Assembly (NCBI GenBank): GCA_947589345.1
Contig: CANQAC010000005.1
Location: forward strand, 1-64,000
Direction: 5' to 3'
Length of the DNA: 64,000 nucleotides
DNA from: an uncultured Akkermansia sp.
GTDB taxonomy: Bacteria > Verrucomicrobiota > Verrucomicrobiia > Verrucomicrobiales > Akkermansiaceae
The notes under the pieces: model-generated
Database searches by the model: none
Seen by the model: only the letters and a program-made list of their open reading frames with translations
Told to the model about the DNA's origin: nothing
In this document: in pieces, positions 4,006 to 25,938 of the stretch
Layout of the letters: every line of letters begins with the position of its first letter
How positions within the stretch are numbered: the first letter of the stretch is position 1
Program-made: the position numbers and the translations under genes

Positions 4006-7000
4006 ATGGCGGGAAAGATCAACATACGCCGGGTTGGCTCCGTGTTGCCGACGGTTTGCTTGTTAGTCTTTCTCGCGTTGTGTGGCATGGTAGCTTGGCT
4101 GAGCAGTGCCGGCTTTCCTGATGGGGTTGTGCGCTACATTGAGGAAAAGGCGGCGGCGGAAGGTCTTTACCTGAGCATCGGAAAGATGCGTCTGGATCCT
4201 CTGCGCGGGATAGCAGTGCGTGTGGGGTCAGTGAGACTCTACGTGGATGCTGAAAAACAGCAGAAACTTGGGGATGTGCGCACTGCGGCGGTCGGATTAA
4301 GCATCGCCGGACTGGTATCCGGAGAACTGCGCCCGTCATTTATCCAAGTGATAGATGGAGATATAGCGCTTCCCGTGACAAAGTCTCCGGAGGAGAAGCT
4401 GCACGTTCGAGTAGATCGACTGGAGGCACGTGGAGGGAGGAACGGCGAGGTGCGCGTGACCAATGGAAAATTAAGTCTGCAGGGCATAGTTATCAGTTTA
4501 GCCGGGAATGTGGACCCAGCGATAATTCCGGAGGGAGGGGATCAAAAAGTGAATTTGGCGGCAATCATTGAAAAATACCGCGGAGTTATCGATCGGGTGT
4601 ACGATGGCATACAAAGTCAGGCGTGGGAGCGTGGGGAGCATCCGACGCTGGATGTGCACTTGGATGTGCGTGAAGAACCGCGAATTGCTTTGCGTCTCAA
4701 TGTGCCGCGCTACGATGTGTCACAATTTCACTTTCGTGAGTTGGTGGCAGATTTTTTGTACAACAAAGGCAATATCACCATCAATTCGCTGAGCGTTCAC
4801 ACGTCCGATCCCGATGCTTCTGCCAAGCTGCAAGGGGCTTATGATTTAACGACTCGGCACTTAGTGTTCAGCATGGACAGTACAGTCGCACTGGTGCGCA
4901 TGATTCGTTATGTGAGCCATCCTGAGACGCGAGCGTTTTTGGAAAAGTTTCGACATCCGGATGATAGCCCGCCGAGCGTCAAACTTGGAGGGGATGTCAT
5001 ATTTGAGGAGGACTATACGCTGGCGAGCGCGCGCCTCCGTGGACTCGTGACGCAGAAGGATATGATGGTGGGCAAGACCAAAGTGGAAGATCTTGAGTTG
5101 TCTTTCCTTTACGACAATGGCGACTTCAATGTTGACAAGCTTGAGCTGTATTTTTCAGACGGATCATTGCGGGCGTTAGCCAGCGCACAGCAGAATAAGG
5201 GGCAGGCGCAGATAGCAGCGGATCTGCCTGTGCAGAAAATACTGACTCTCATCAATGAATTAGCGCCCAAGGCTGTGGAGTTGCCTGAGGGGTTGGAGCT
5301 TGGAGAACGTGTTAATTTGCAGCTGCATGCACAATTGAATGCACCTACTTTCAAAGCCGGACAGGACACATGGCAGGATTTTGTTCCGTCATTCCACATG
5401 CTTGGTGCAGTCATGGAGACAGAAACGATTCGTTACGGAGGGTACGTGCTGAACAACCCGCGTGTGAAACTGAAACTTTCGGAGATCAAGCAGAATCACA
5501 ATTACATACCTGAATCAGTTCAACGAGCGGAGTTACAGTTGTATGCCGAGGAATCTGTTCTACCCGTGACGAAGGAAGAACAAACTTTGCATTTGACAGC
5601 ACCGGAGTTGGAGGTAGACCTTCACGATGTAGGATTTGCTGAAAACGGTTTACCAAATGAGTTAGGTGAGCTGAAAGTCGCTTTGAAGGCGAAGGAAGTT
5701 CGGCAGCCAGCCCCCATAGCAGAAAAGACAAAGCCAATATCGGATACCGATGAAGCGCCCCATGAACCCAAAGCTGAAGACGTACAACAAGTAAATGATG
5801 TTCAGGACATATCGAATCAGGGGCTCACCGTTACGAACCCGAGTATTCGTGCAGCGGCGCGCAACGTGAGGCTGGATTCCTGGTCGGCGGTAGAGACATT
5901 GAGTGCGGGACAAGCGCAAATGCAAGCTCAGGCAGACGCATTGCAACTGCGCGACGTGCAAGTGCGCGCTGGGGAAATCATGATCGATGACGTCAGGAAT
6001 TTCAGACCGTTCATGAAAACGGCGAGTCTTTTCTCTGATGGATGTGTGAAGGCGAATATGGCGGATGTGAAATTGGGAGGTCATGATGTAGGGCGAGTGA
6101 TGTTGAGCGCGGAATTGTACGAGTACACCAAAGGGCAAGTGGTTCTACAGATAGAGCAAAAGGAAGGAGACGTGCGTTGCACAGTGAGTGCAAAGTCGGA
6201 TTGGAGTGATGCACAACAAATTGAGTTCAAAGATGTGCAAGCGGATGTTCCGGGAGATGTCATTGCTCTACTAACCAACCTTGCGGGTGTGGAGATGGAA
6301 GAAATAGAGCAGCCGGAGTTGGTGAGCATAAGAGGGGATGTGCAGCTTGCCCCTAGTATGAAATTAAAGAGTGCAATGATGCATGTAGAGGTGCCTCAGT
6401 TGATACGCACACCACACCGCGTGAAAGTATTCCGCGAGAGACGAGTACCAGTAGGGCTGCAAGCAGATGTGGGATTGAAATGCGCACAGGACAAGGAGGA
6501 TTTGCTGTACGACGTTCGACTAGAAATCACGCACGAGACAGGAAAGCTGCGTGGTCATATTGCCGGTTCAACGGAGGGTCGCCTGCGGGTGACAGGGCAT
6601 AACACAATTCGTCCCGATATCGTGGATGAGCTTATAGATAATACTCGTGTTCACTCAATTATTCGAGATTTTCGTTTCAACGAGAATACAAAATCCACCA
6701 TTTCCGACATCCGGGTGCAGGTGGATTATTCAAATGGCGTGCAGGTAGATTCTTTCTGTCAGGTAGAGCTGCTCAATGCAGAGTATCAGATGTGTGTCTT
6801 GCTGGATAATGCCGATGGATCAGAGAGCGTGCGTACGGATATCGGCGATAATCCGTACACGTTGGTAAATCGCGCCACCTGCGGGGTGGCTGCTCATGTG
6901 CAGATGGATTGTAGGGATCCGCAGGGAGCTACTTTGCCGGATGAAATTGTGGTGACGGTCACAGAGCCTGCCCTGTACTACAATAATCAACCTTGGCTGA

Positions 7001-21079: not shown

Positions 21080-22171
21080 ATGATGACTGACCTCAATGAA
21101 TCCCCGCAGCTTACTGTCGCCCTTGTACGCGCCGCACTCACCACGGTAAAGTATCCCGGATTTTCGCGCGACATTGTTTCCTTCGGACTGGTAAAGGATG
21201 TGCAGGTGACACCCACTGGCGAAGTTACGATCGACTTGGTGGTAGAAAGCGCCAACTCCGACGTCCCGCGCTACATCTACGAGAGCGTGGTGGGTACGGT
21301 GAAAGAATTGCCCGGCCTCAGCAAATTGGATGTCAATATCGAGCACCATGCTCCGCAACCCAAGAAAAATCCCGCGGCCAACGATGACCCCGCTGCTTGG
21401 AAGTCCTCGGTGCCGGGCGTCAAACACGTCATTGCCGTGGCTTCCGGCAAGGGTGGCGTGGGTAAGAGCACCGTGTCCGCCAATTTGGCCGTAGCGCTCG
21501 CTCGCCTCGGTTATCGCACGGGGCTGTTGGACCTCGATATATACGGCCCCTCCATGGCGCTGATGTTCGGCACCAAAGAGCGTCCCGGCTGCTCGGACAA
21601 GGAGCAATTCCTGCCGGTGGAGGTAGCGGGCATCAAACTGCTCTCCATGGGACTGTTGGTCGATGAAGATGCGCCGGTGGCTGTGCGCGGGCCGCTTGCC
21701 ACGCGCTACGTGCAGCAGTTCTTGCGCGATGTGGAGTGGGGCGGGTTGGACTTCCTTATTCTGGATCTGCCGCCCGGCACCGGCGATATTCAACTCACCA
21801 TCGTGCAAACGGTGGATCTGGCAGGCGCTGTCATCGTCACCACCCCGCAAGAGGTTGCACTGATCGATGCACGTAAGGCCGTTGGACTCTTCAACCGGGT
21901 GAATACGCCCATCCTTGGCATCATCGAGAACATGAGCTACTTCGTCTGTCCCAGCGATGGTCTGGTGTACCACATCTTCGGTGAAGGCGGCGGAGAGGCG
22001 GAAGCGCAAAAGCTCGGCGTGCCGCTGCTTGGCAAGATACCGTTGGACATTGACACGCGCGCTGCCGGAGATGCCGGGAAGCCCATAGCTCTGCAAGACC
22101 CGGGACAATCGCAGGTAGCCGCCGCGTTCAGCGCCGTGGCATCTGCCCTGGCATCGGTGTTGGGGGAATGA
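21080..22171 (+). CDS. mrp: Mrp/ApbC-type P-loop ATPase (Fe-S carrier family)
   Basis: Mrp/ApbC proteins bind and deliver Fe-S clusters. The 363-aa protein has an N-terminal MIP18-like domain (about 8-92) and a deviant-Walker ATPase domain: SGKGGVGKST near residue 120, LLDLDIYGPS, and DFLILDLPPGTGDIQL. Near residue 290, where most Mrp proteins have a CxxC pair for the bridging cluster, this one reads NMSYFVCPSDG, so only one cysteine remains. Whether it still carries a cluster is uncertain. It starts right after terC and converges on the repeat-protein gene. Confidence 0.9.
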   Translation: MMTDLNESPQLTVALVRAALTTVKYPGFSRDIVSFGLVKDVQVTPTGEVTIDLVVESANSDVPRYIYESVVGTVKELPGLSKLDVNIEHHAPQPKKNPAANDDPAAWKSSVPGVKHVIAVASGKGGVGKSTVSANLAVALARLGYRTGLLDLDIYGPSMALMFGTKERPGCSDKEQFLPVEVAGIKLLSMGLLVDEDAPVAVRGPLATRYVQQFLRDVEWGGLDFLILDLPPGTGDIQLTIVQTVDLAGAVIVTTPQEVALIDARKAVGLFNRVNTPILGIIENMSYFVCPSDGLVYHIFGEGGGEAEAQKLGVPLLGKIPLDIDTRAAGDAGKPIALQDPGQSQVAAAFSAVASALASVLGE

Positions 22172-22177
22172 CGCCGC

Positions 22178-23506
22178 TCAGCGCTCCCCTGCGCCATCCT
22201 CTTCATCATCATCGGTAGATTCGAGTGAGGGACGGACGTAGAGAATGCCGTTTCTCTCATCAAAATCAAGGAAGAACTTTGAGTCGGTCTCGGGTGCAGT
22301 GTAGGTAAAGGATTCTCCCTGCTTTTTCCAACCGGCGTCCAGCAGGTCACTTTCAAACCGCTCGGTTGGCTTCTTTGTCAAACAGAGCAGCAAGATGTCT
22401 TTTTGCGGACACTCGCGAGAGATCGAAACGTCCAGTGAGGACGTGGGGACGTGGTACGTCTCCTCCACCTGCTCCTCGTTGATTTCGTGGAGTTTGCCCA
22501 CGACGCACAGAGCACTGTTGTTGCAGAAAAACACAGCCATCTTATTCCCTGAGCCATACACAAACAACGCGTCCTTTCCGAGACGCCGCCATCCTGCCGC
22601 CTCCAGAGCACGATAAAAATCCTCCGTGGGCGCCGTCTTCAGCCGCAGGATAAGATTTTCGGTATCATCGCTCTCACCATGGCGCAGGCATAGCTCCACC
22701 TGTAATTTATCGCAAGGGATATGCAGATCCTTTTCCACGTCTTGAGCACTTACCACACGGCCGATGGGTACGATGAAAATCTCATGCTCCCAGTCAACAT
22801 AAGACAGCATCAGGAGCTTACTTCCTTCGACCCGTTCGTAAATGTGTTCTCCCTTGTGTTGCCACCCGGCGGCTTGCAGTGCCTCGAAAAAATCCTCTCC
22901 CGGCTCAGTGTTCAACTGTATATGGAAGAATCCATAATTCTCATCCCTACTACTGCGATTTTCAATGCACAGCGCTCCATGCAGCATCCGGAGCGGCACA
23001 TGCAATTTTTCCATGCGGTCCGGTCCCACGACTCGCCCACTCAAATACACCGAGAGCATATGATCTTTCTCGTAATAAAAAAGCTTCCACTCTTGGCGAT
23101 TTTCGACGCGGTTGAACATAGTGTCGCTGCCGTGGAATTGTTGCCATCCGGCAGCTTTCAAGTCGCTGTAGAATTGCCCTGAGGGCGCTTCCTTCAGCCA
23201 AATATGCGCATAGTCGTCACCATCCTCGCACCGGTCAATTTGCAGCGACCCGCACGGAACATGCCACTGCCGCTCCACTCTCGCCGTCGTCCACACATTC
23301 GCACCCTCATGTCCTGAAAATTGTACCAGCAATGACCTGTCGTTCTCATCCACGATCCAGCTTGTTGGTACACGACTTCCATGTCCTGCAATTCGTACCA
23401 ACAACGACACCATCACACTCAGCACGAAAACTCCCGCAATCAGCGCTCCCAACAGGTACACAGCTATGACCCATTCAGACGGCTTTTTACGTCGTTGCTC
23501 TTGCAT
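22178..23506 (-). CDS. Membrane-anchored protein with four ~82-aa repeats
   Basis: I do not recognise this 442-aa protein. It has a short charged N-terminus, one TM helix (about 12-38) and then four tandem repeats at about 77-158, 164-249, 257-338 and 347-427, ending in an acidic tail. Each repeat opens with VE-x(2-4)-HVP or HIPC, continues with an alternating strand, a T/EAPxxxFxxxL helix and the invariant AGW, then a strand pair ending near GRV or GKL. The pattern suggests a compact alpha/beta unit repeated like beads, exported to the periplasm or outer face. The neighbouring gene has the same layout with one repeat. Its -10 box ends 6 nt before the ATG. Confidence 0.8.
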   Translation of the reverse strand: MQEQRRKKPSEWVIAVYLLGALIAGVFVLSVMVSLLVRIAGHGSRVPTSWIVDENDRSLLVQFSGHEGANVWTTARVERQWHVPCGSLQIDRCEDGDDYAHIWLKEAPSGQFYSDLKAAGWQQFHGSDTMFNRVENRQEWKLFYYEKDHMLSVYLSGRVVGPDRMEKLHVPLRMLHGALCIENRSSRDENYGFFHIQLNTEPGEDFFEALQAAGWQHKGEHIYERVEGSKLLMLSYVDWEHEIFIVPIGRVVSAQDVEKDLHIPCDKLQVELCLRHGESDDTENLILRLKTAPTEDFYRALEAAGWRRLGKDALFVYGSGNKMAVFFCNNSALCVVGKLHEINEEQVEETYHVPTSSLDVSISRECPQKDILLLCLTKKPTERFESDLLDAGWKKQGESFTYTAPETDSKFFLDFDERNGILYVRPSLESTDDDEEDGAGER

Positions 23507-23512
23507 GCTTCC

Positions 23513-23541
23513 AATGTACCATGGCTAGACAACCGACACAA
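23513..23541 (-). promoter_or_regulatory. Promoter of the four-repeat gene (leaderless)
   Basis: Minus strand: TTGTGT (23541-23536), a 17-bp spacer and TACATT (23518-23513), ending 6 nt before the ATG at 23506. The -35 is weak, the -10 good. Confidence 0.5.
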
Positions 23542-23546
23542 GAAGA

Positions 23547-23969
23547 TTAGTTTTCTTGCAGGCGTCTTCTTGCCCTATGGTCGATGCAGAAGTACAGCGT
23601 TTGCTCTTCGGGGTGGTACTCCAGCCACAGCAAGATTTCCCGCCCATTCTCCTGTTGCTGTAGGACGTACCCGCGTCCACAGCGTTTCCAACCTGCTGAC
23701 CCCAACGCACGGTCGAATTGCTCCGAAGGCGAGGTCTCCAGTCGTACCTCCAGTTCGTTAGAGTCCATGTCAAAAATCGCCTCTTTCACCTGCAAAGATT
23801 CACAGGGGATGCGACAATTTTTCTCCACCCATTCCGGCGTTTCTTGCACGACCATCCCTACTGACGCAAAAAACATCACCACAAGCGCTAAAAGTCCCGC
23901 AGAAATGCCCCCAATCACATAGACAATCACGAGCCACGCGGAGGACTTGCTTTGGTTGCGCGTCTTCAT
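23547..23969 (-). CDS. Membrane-anchored protein with a single copy of the same repeat
   Basis: This 140-aa protein matches the organisation of the downstream 442-aa gene: a charged start (MKTRNQSKSSAW), one TM helix (about 11-38) and one repeat (about 46-128) with VEKNCRIPCESLQV, TSPSEQFDRALGSAGW and a closing strand pair. The N-termini also align (SAWLVIVYVIGG against SEWVIAVYLLGA), so the two genes are paralogues and the larger one probably arose by internal duplication of the repeat. I chose the ATG at 23969 because the promoter's -10 ends 7 nt before it. Function unknown. Confidence 0.75.
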   Translation of the reverse strand: MKTRNQSKSSAWLVIVYVIGGISAGLLALVVMFFASVGMVVQETPEWVEKNCRIPCESLQVKEAIFDMDSNELEVRLETSPSEQFDRALGSAGWKRCGRGYVLQQQENGREILLWLEYHPEEQTLYFCIDHRARRRLQEN

Positions 23970-23976
23970 ACACAGC

Positions 23977-24005
23977 ATTTTACATAACGAAAACATGCGC
24001 GACAA
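23977..24005 (-). promoter_or_regulatory. Promoter of the single-repeat gene (leaderless)
   Basis: Minus strand: TTGTCG (24005-24000), a 17-bp spacer and TAAAAT (23982-23977), 7 nt before the ATG at 23969. It is divergent from the pckG promoter. Confidence 0.6.
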
Positions 24006-24090: not shown

Positions 24091-25938
24091 ATGAAAATCA
24101 CTGGCACAACTCACAAAAAGGCCGCTGAGTGGGTGGAGAAAGTCCGCCAGCTCTGTAAGCCCGATTCCGTTTACTGGTGCGACGGATCGGAAGAGGAAAA
24201 CACCCAGCTATGCGACATGCTGGTCGAGAAAGGCACCTACATCCGCTTGAATCCTGAGAAACGCCCCGGTTGCTTCCTCGCCCGCTCCACTCCTTCCGAT
24301 GTGGCTCGCGTGGAGGAACGCACGTTCATCTGCTCTGAAAAACAGGAAGACGCCGGTCCTACCAACAACTGGAAAGCCCCGGACGAGATGCGCGCCATCC
24401 TCAACAAGTTCCTGGACGGCTGCATGAAGGGCCGCACCATGTACGTCATCCCCTTCTGCATGGGTCCTCTGGACTCCCCTCTGGCTAAGATCGGCATCGA
24501 AATCACCGACTCCGCCTACGTGGTGACCAATATGCGCATCATGACCATCATGGGCGCCGAGGTGCTCAAACGCCTCGAGGACGAGACGCAGGGCGGCGGC
24601 AATCCGAAGCGCGACGGCTACGGCGACTTCGTGCCCTGCCTGCACACCGTGGGTGCGCCGCTTGAGCCGGGTGAGCAGGACGTCACTTGGCCCTGCAACA
24701 ACGAGGAGAAATACATCTGCCACTTCCCTGAGACCGGCGAGATCATCTCCTACGGATCCGGTTACGGTGGCAATGCGCTGCTCGGCAAGAAGTGTCTGGC
24801 CCTGCGTATCGCTACCACCATTGCCCGCAAGAACGGCTGGATGGCGGAACACATGCTCATCCTTGGCGTCACCGACCCGAAGGGACGCAAATCCTACGTG
24901 ACAGGCGCATTCCCCTCTGCCTGCGGCAAGACGAACCTCGCCATGCTCGTTCCTCCGCCCGCTCTGCGCGAGAAGGGCTGGAAGACCAGCATCATCGGCG
25001 ACGACATCGCTTGGATCTGGCCGCATGAGGACGGCACCTTCCACGCCATCAACCCGGAGAACGGCTACTTCGGCGTGGCTCCCGGCACCTCCTACAAGAC
25101 CAACCCCATCGCCATGGATACCATCAAGAAGAACGTCATCTTCACCAACGTCGGTCTTACCGATGACGGTGATGTGTGGTGGGAAGGTATGGACGGCGAG
25201 CCGCCGGCACATGCCATCGACTGGCAGGGCAACGACTGGACGCCGGACTGCGGACGCAAGTGCGCTCACCCCAACAGCCGCTTCACCGCTCCCGCTTCCC
25301 AGTGCCCGACGCTGGATCCGGAGTACTACAACCCCGAGGGTGTCTCCATCAGCGCGTTCCTCTTCGGCGGACGCCGCGCCACCACCATGCCGCTCGTTTA
25401 CCAGTCCCGCGACTGGGATCACGGCGTGTACGTGGGCGCCACGATGGGCTCGGAGATGACCGCCGCCGCTTTCGGCAAGATCGGTCAGGTGCGCCGCGAC
25501 CCGATGGCCATGAAGCCCTTCATCGGCTACAACGTGGGCGACTACTGGCAGCACTGGTTGGATATGGGCAAGAAGACCTGCGCTTGCAAGCTTCCCAAGA
25601 TTTTCAACGTGAACTGGTTCCGCAAGGACGAGGAGGGACACTTCCTGTGGCCCGGCTACGGTGACAATATGCGCGTGCTCGATTGGGTGCTGCGCCGCTG
25701 CCATGGCGAAGTCGAGGGCGTTGAAACCAAGCTCGGCGTCTCCCCAGCCTACAACGAGCTGGACCTCGACGGTCTCACCGATTACTCCGAGGAGCAGTTC
25801 AACAAGAACATGGCGCTTACTCCTTCCGAGTGGCAGGCTGAGCTGGAAAGCCAGACCGAGCTCTTCGACTCCGTCGGCTCCAAGCTTCCCGCCGAGCTCG
25901 AAAGCCAGCGCAAGACGCTCATCGCCAAGTTCAGCTGA
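24091..25938 (+). CDS. pckG: Phosphoenolpyruvate carboxykinase (GTP)
   Basis: GTP-dependent PEPCK interconverts oxaloacetate and PEP, at the junction of glycolysis/gluconeogenesis and the C4 branch used in succinate or propionate fermentation. The 615-aa length is normal for the GTP class. The P-loop with the reactive cysteine, FPSACGKTN (274-282), GDDIAWI and the [11 protein letters not shown] segment are intact. Codon use is strikingly biased to C/G-ending codons compared with most neighbours, a mark of high expression. A strong promoter and terminator flank it, so it is a single-gene unit. Confidence 0.97.

Follow-up and report, generated by a model that had tools for sequence, protein, structure and literature searches.

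A membrane-anchored Akkermansia domain family, expanded fourfold in one protein, with a possible role in immunity to neighbouring bacteria

The window, a stretch of 64,000 nucleotides, belongs to an uncultured Akkermansia sp. whose genome (G000) comprises 2.25 Mb in 102 contigs. Two genes, termed A and B, are both located on the minus strand between mrp (21080 to 22171) and pckG (24091 to 25938) and are separated from each other by 40 nt. The original prediction described them as adjacent genes carrying one and four copies, respectively, of a related unit, and the open reading frames, pairwise alignments and a sequence profile all agreed with this description. The features of the locus are as follows:

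23977 to 24005, minus strand: promoter-like site of gene A, TTGTCG-17-TAAAAT, ending 7 nt before the ATG; TAAAAT is present in 6 of 6 orthologues
23547 to 23969, minus strand: gene A, anchored protein of 140 aa with one unit
23862 to 23936, minus strand: membrane anchor of A, approximately residues 12 to 36; hydropathy of 2.63, homologous to the B anchor
23565 to 23834, minus strand: unit of A; profile E of 6.4e-31, AlphaFold2 pLDDT of 90.3
23513 to 23518, minus strand: TACATT box of gene B, ending 6 nt before the ATG; weak, conserved in 4 of 5 orthologues
22178 to 23506, minus strand: gene B, anchored protein of 442 aa (442 codons plus stop) with four units
23387 to 23476, minus strand: membrane anchor of B, residues 11 to 40, preceded by RRKK (N-in); hydropathy of 2.66, low-confidence helix at 11 to 40 in the model
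23024 to 23284, minus strand: B unit 1; profile E of 3.7e-33, full-length B model
22742 to 23017, minus strand: B unit 2; profile E of 2.9e-29, full-length B model
22481 to 22744, minus strand: B unit 3; profile E of 1.2e-28, full-length B model
22223 to 22474, minus strand: B unit 4, followed by an acidic tail; profile E of 5.3e-29, full-length B model

Both proteins begin with a positively charged end followed by a single long hydrophobic segment, and the segments of A and B are homologous (score of 70 versus a shuffle maximum of 40), as anticipated from the prediction of a common N-terminal membrane segment. Four AGW-centred units are present in B (W121, W215, W306 and W393) and one in A, with a unit length of about 90 residues in both proteins. 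In pairwise alignments, 10 of 10 unit pairs scored above every shuffle (z of 7 to 19), and a 10-row profile recovered all five units (E of 1e-28 to 4e-33). The spacing of the repeats in B was measured as 94, 91 and 87 residues rather than the predicted 80 to 82, and the AGW motif, previously described as invariant, is not so in the wider family, where the invariant residues of 'P...F...L...GW' are limited to P, L, G and W. The unit shared by A and B is a real, unnamed, Akkermansia-restricted domain that has been expanded fourfold within B; the proposed internal duplication was upheld by the unit homology, the profile and the unit tree described below.

The −10-like boxes that had been placed 6 to 7 nt before the start codons were present at those positions in both genes. 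In most A orthologues, TTGTC is found 17 nt upstream of TAAAAT, and its position is conserved. Neither of the in-frame ATG codons of A is present in all orthologues, and the start codon of this gene is, hence, uncertain. Upstream of gene B there is a separate short conserved stretch, which is present also in genomes where B is not preceded by A; the TACATT box itself may be due to chance.

Searches with the unit domain produced no match above the curated cut-off in Pfam, NCBIfam, PHROGs or PADLOC and only chance-level matches in a sequence search of the PDB; the absence of a named domain was, in this respect, as originally stated, and no profile match to a known domain was credible. The ATE_N family (PF04376) was considered and rejected. 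A 24-residue match at 'F...L..aGWrr.G' of B unit 3 (residues 288 to 311 of B only) scored 20.8 bits against a cut-off of 27, and the short match was present in 2 of 14 units. Of 76 Akkermansia species genomes, 15 contained the domain according to the unit profile. A phylum-wide sample (387 genomes, 197 genera) yielded no member outside Akkermansia, and none was found in plasmids or phages. Possible relatives elsewhere in the order, from a sample of 190 genomes, were discarded as weak, short chance matches (E of 1e-3 to 1e-2) in unrelated or antisense frames. Within the libraries and genomes that were searched, the family has no name and does not extend beyond Akkermansia.

The architecture of the family differs between species. 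A and B occur together in G000, G064 and G065, and also in G066 up to the contig end; A occurs without B in G067, G069 and G070, while G073 has A and a distant member, and G071 has B without A. G068 and G072 have an A-C-B arrangement; the additional gene C encodes another protein of four units, with approximately 41% identity to B. The distant members are single-unit lipoproteins with a lipobox (two in G003 and one each in G029 and G073) or single-unit anchored proteins (G021 and G042). The nearest named relatives of the window's genome are the 'Lapin' assemblies of uncultured Akkermansia sp., for which the name suggests a rabbit source. In the unit tree, B2 paired with C2, B3 with C3 and B4 with C4 (94 to 99% support), with B1 and C1 unresolved, indicating that the four-unit form is older than the B/C duplication, while long branches leave the root open. 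The ancestral form was likely a single unit, anchored or lipidated; the four-unit protein would have arisen in the clade known from rabbit-gut assemblies and then been duplicated once to give gene C of G068 and G072. Repeat expansion is in itself common among lineage-specific envelope domains. Around the G029 lipoprotein member, near-identical signal-peptide-like leaders occur at or near several genes (L110:181-239, 730-788, 4110-4169 and 5960-6007), a pattern that suggests gene capture or recombination.

Structure prediction with AlphaFold2 was performed on the A unit and on full-length B. The A unit, with 27 related rows, was modelled with a pLDDT of 90.3 as a helix, two strands, a helix, three to four strands and a helix. 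The B model, with six rows only, had a pLDDT of 75 and repeated this pattern in all four units, with the membrane segment as one low-confidence helix. The units share the same secondary structure in the models, and the four B units probably fold alike, as judged from this predicted secondary structure and their homology. The sequence profile, the confident model and the lipoprotein relatives establish A and B as members of an Akkermansia-specific envelope family based on an alpha+beta domain of approximately 90 residues.

Comparison of the A unit with known structures by VIA-align ranked DcrB first (6e8a; Z of 5.7, rmsd of 3.5, 90 of 100 residues aligned), followed by BamC (6v05; Z of 4.8, rmsd of 3.5, 77 aligned) and EagT6 (6xrf; Z of 4.7, rmsd of 3.5, 71 aligned); BamC also headed the ranking when the complete B model was compared (Z of 4.7, rmsd of 3.1, 75 aligned). 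None of the matches listed passed a Z of 8, and all were below the level separating true relatives from common arrangements; the likeness of the modelled unit to these folds is a weak lead only. Foldseek searches with the models gave no credible match. Both BamC (PF06804) and DcrB, of the Mog1-PsbP-like type, were rejected as sequence relatives, there being no Pfam match to either and hhalign probabilities of only 0.4% with E. coli BamC and 0.1% with E. coli DcrB.

These matches raise the possibility that A and B are periplasmic adaptors or scaffolds, in which a membrane tether carries tandem helix-grip or Mog1/PsbP-like domains that bind an envelope partner in the manner of BamC or DcrB. BamC is a lipoprotein with two helix-grip domains (PMC3359395), and B resembles it in having tandem alpha+beta domains on a periplasmic membrane tether; the family also includes lipoproteins. 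BamC, which is known from proteobacteria of the beta and gamma classes, differs in having two domains rather than four. DcrB and EagT6, both grouped with the Mog1-PsbP-like domains, match weakly across most of the unit, and DcrB is also an envelope protein, but one with a single domain. Against an adaptor function are the low Z values, the lack of sequence support and the presence of the domain in only 15 of the 76 species, which argues against a core envelope role; it is the main alternative but probably not the correct one.

An orientation of the domain towards the envelope follows from the distant members, each of which is a single unit with either a lipobox or an anchor. For A and B, the long, uncleaved-looking N-terminal anchor suggests, at the level of sequence, an inner membrane protein exposed to the periplasm, and the periplasmic side is the likely location of the domain. 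The earlier proposal of a periplasmic or surface-facing module was, hence, retained with respect to anchoring and orientation towards the envelope but not with respect to the surface. A surface or host-facing binding protein composed of repeated binding domains, for mucin or the host for example, would be consistent with the repeat architecture and the variation among gut species, and some of the lipoprotein relatives could reach the outer surface. However, the A and B anchors have no obvious cleavage site and would hold these proteins in the inner membrane, and neither protein has an outer-membrane, LPXTG-like or autotransporter part, such that a binding function of this type is improbable.

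The position next to pckG had been pointed out, but in relatives the four genes mrp, pckG, A and B lie apart or in other arrangements. In most A-bearing genomes with that side assembled, A adjoins pckG, while B adjoins mrp, and all four genes are found together in some species only. Beyond A are ankyrin genes in G067, what we take to be a phosphofructokinase-like gene in G070 and other genes elsewhere; in G071, A is absent and an ankyrin gene adjoins pckG. The large ankyrin-repeat proteins that are located beside A or take its place next to pckG in G067 and G071 are encoded at L098:1816-5193 and L160:5062-7551. As the neighbours vary among relatives, pckG and mrp provide no functional clue, and a functional tie of A and B to either gene was rejected.

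For the same genome pairs, dN/dS was approximately 0.2 to 0.5 for A and B versus approximately 0.02 to 0.1 for mrp, terC, pckG and trpB. Selection on A and B is purifying but relaxed, as expected for accessory envelope or conflict proteins. The dS of B (0.11 to 0.38) mostly did not exceed that of the housekeeping genes on either side, though its dN was higher, and this low dS could reflect recombination of B between species. The patchy presence of the family, its rearranged neighbourhood and the report of a stop codon in A of G066 might indicate a lineage-specific family that has expanded by chance and has little or dispensable function. Such an explanation is very improbable given that dN/dS is well below 1 and that the reading frame, the anchor and the unit cores are conserved across species.

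One family member was found within an RHS array. The G073 lipoprotein (L113:2285-2686), which has an LSSC lipobox, ends approximately 10 nt before the next RHS cassette junction and occupies the slot directly ahead of a new cassette in a decayed array. In this junction, an RHS-core fragment ('HKxKRDLLTKM') comes after a degenerate GTGAATTGCAAGAACAAATGCAAC repeat, and a second RHS fragment and further repeats are present on the same 3.2-kb contig. RHS fragments in G000 and G069 begin with the same junction, which is shared by the RHS arrays of these two genomes and G073, and some of the genes just ahead of it have signal peptides or lipoboxes. Identification of the arrays as RHS was based on intact relatives matching PF05593, namely open frames in G069 (E of 2.5e-8) and G000 (E of 1.5e-8). 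Such slots in known RHS arrays hold immunity genes, including orphan ones. As RHS genes are widespread in Akkermansia (64 of 76 genomes) and only one case was observed, the association may be due to chance. The window genome also has an RHS cassette array on contig C52 (L188:1100-6498), with a 698-aa RHS open frame; between repeat copies on the same strand are small genes for secreted, lipoprotein and cytoplasmic products.

The G073 member, together with the tandem paralogues, the patchy distribution and the fast protein evolution, leads us to favour, tentatively and at somewhat below an even chance, an immunity function in the periplasm for the family, B being a homogeneous polyimmunity protein. 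The domain would bind and neutralise toxins that reach the cell from neighbouring bacteria (RHS toxin tips, for example), and the four diverged binding units of B on one tether might meet several toxin variants. Polyimmunity proteins, and small same-strand loci lacking toxin genes, have been described for polymorphic toxin systems, as have tandem immunity copies in one polypeptide (e.g., tandem SUKH) and one immunity family with a signal peptide and lipobox (PMC3482391). The A-B cluster of the window and the A-C-B clusters of G068 and G072 match these loci and proteins in consisting of two to three same-strand genes with no intervening toxin gene, in the several tandem domains of B, which are putative immunity domains, and in their rapid divergence, and this likeness supports an immunity role. 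Further support comes from the unit tree, in which the units are diverged and the duplication that gave B and C came after the four-unit form. Orphan immunity is discussed in PMC10539506.

Several observations count against an immunity role. Only a single member is located by RHS remnants, A and B are not, and the members in G021, G042 and G003 contig C85 are found among housekeeping genes. Many known immunity proteins, above all those against nucleases, are cytoplasmic, and envelope proteins often have a high dN/dS. Known immunity families gave no match to the domain, which has no sequence relationship with the library families that were searched, and A and B also differ from described polyimmunity proteins in being membrane-anchored and periplasmic, with putative neutralisation. 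The fuller version, in which B is a tethered periplasmic polyimmunity protein whose four diverged immunity-domain copies were captured from RHS arrays and amplified in gut Akkermansia, is rather unlikely as a whole. If the immunity function is correct, the family would provide a first handle on how RHS-rich Akkermansia species resist each other in the gut, and B would represent a tethered multivalent form of immunity protein; if not, this is an ordinary lineage-specific envelope family.

A dispersed sequence of approximately 24 bp, GTGNATTGCAANRNNAAATGCAAC, was also observed, with 26 copies in G000, 33 in G073 and 46 in G069 but none in G001. Sites include positions 52 to 75 of the window (minus strand), L113:79, 460, 1675 and 2973, and, on contig C52 of G000 (L188), 636, 1636, 2638, 5676 and 6506. 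Copies beside A in G065, G070 and G073 were considered as a cassette border, but these fit insertion-element ends and, hence, are not evidence with respect to A. Many copies are situated approximately 52 to 75 bp from contig ends and look like the ends of insertion elements, while in cassette-like arrays, RHS fragments begin exactly with other copies.
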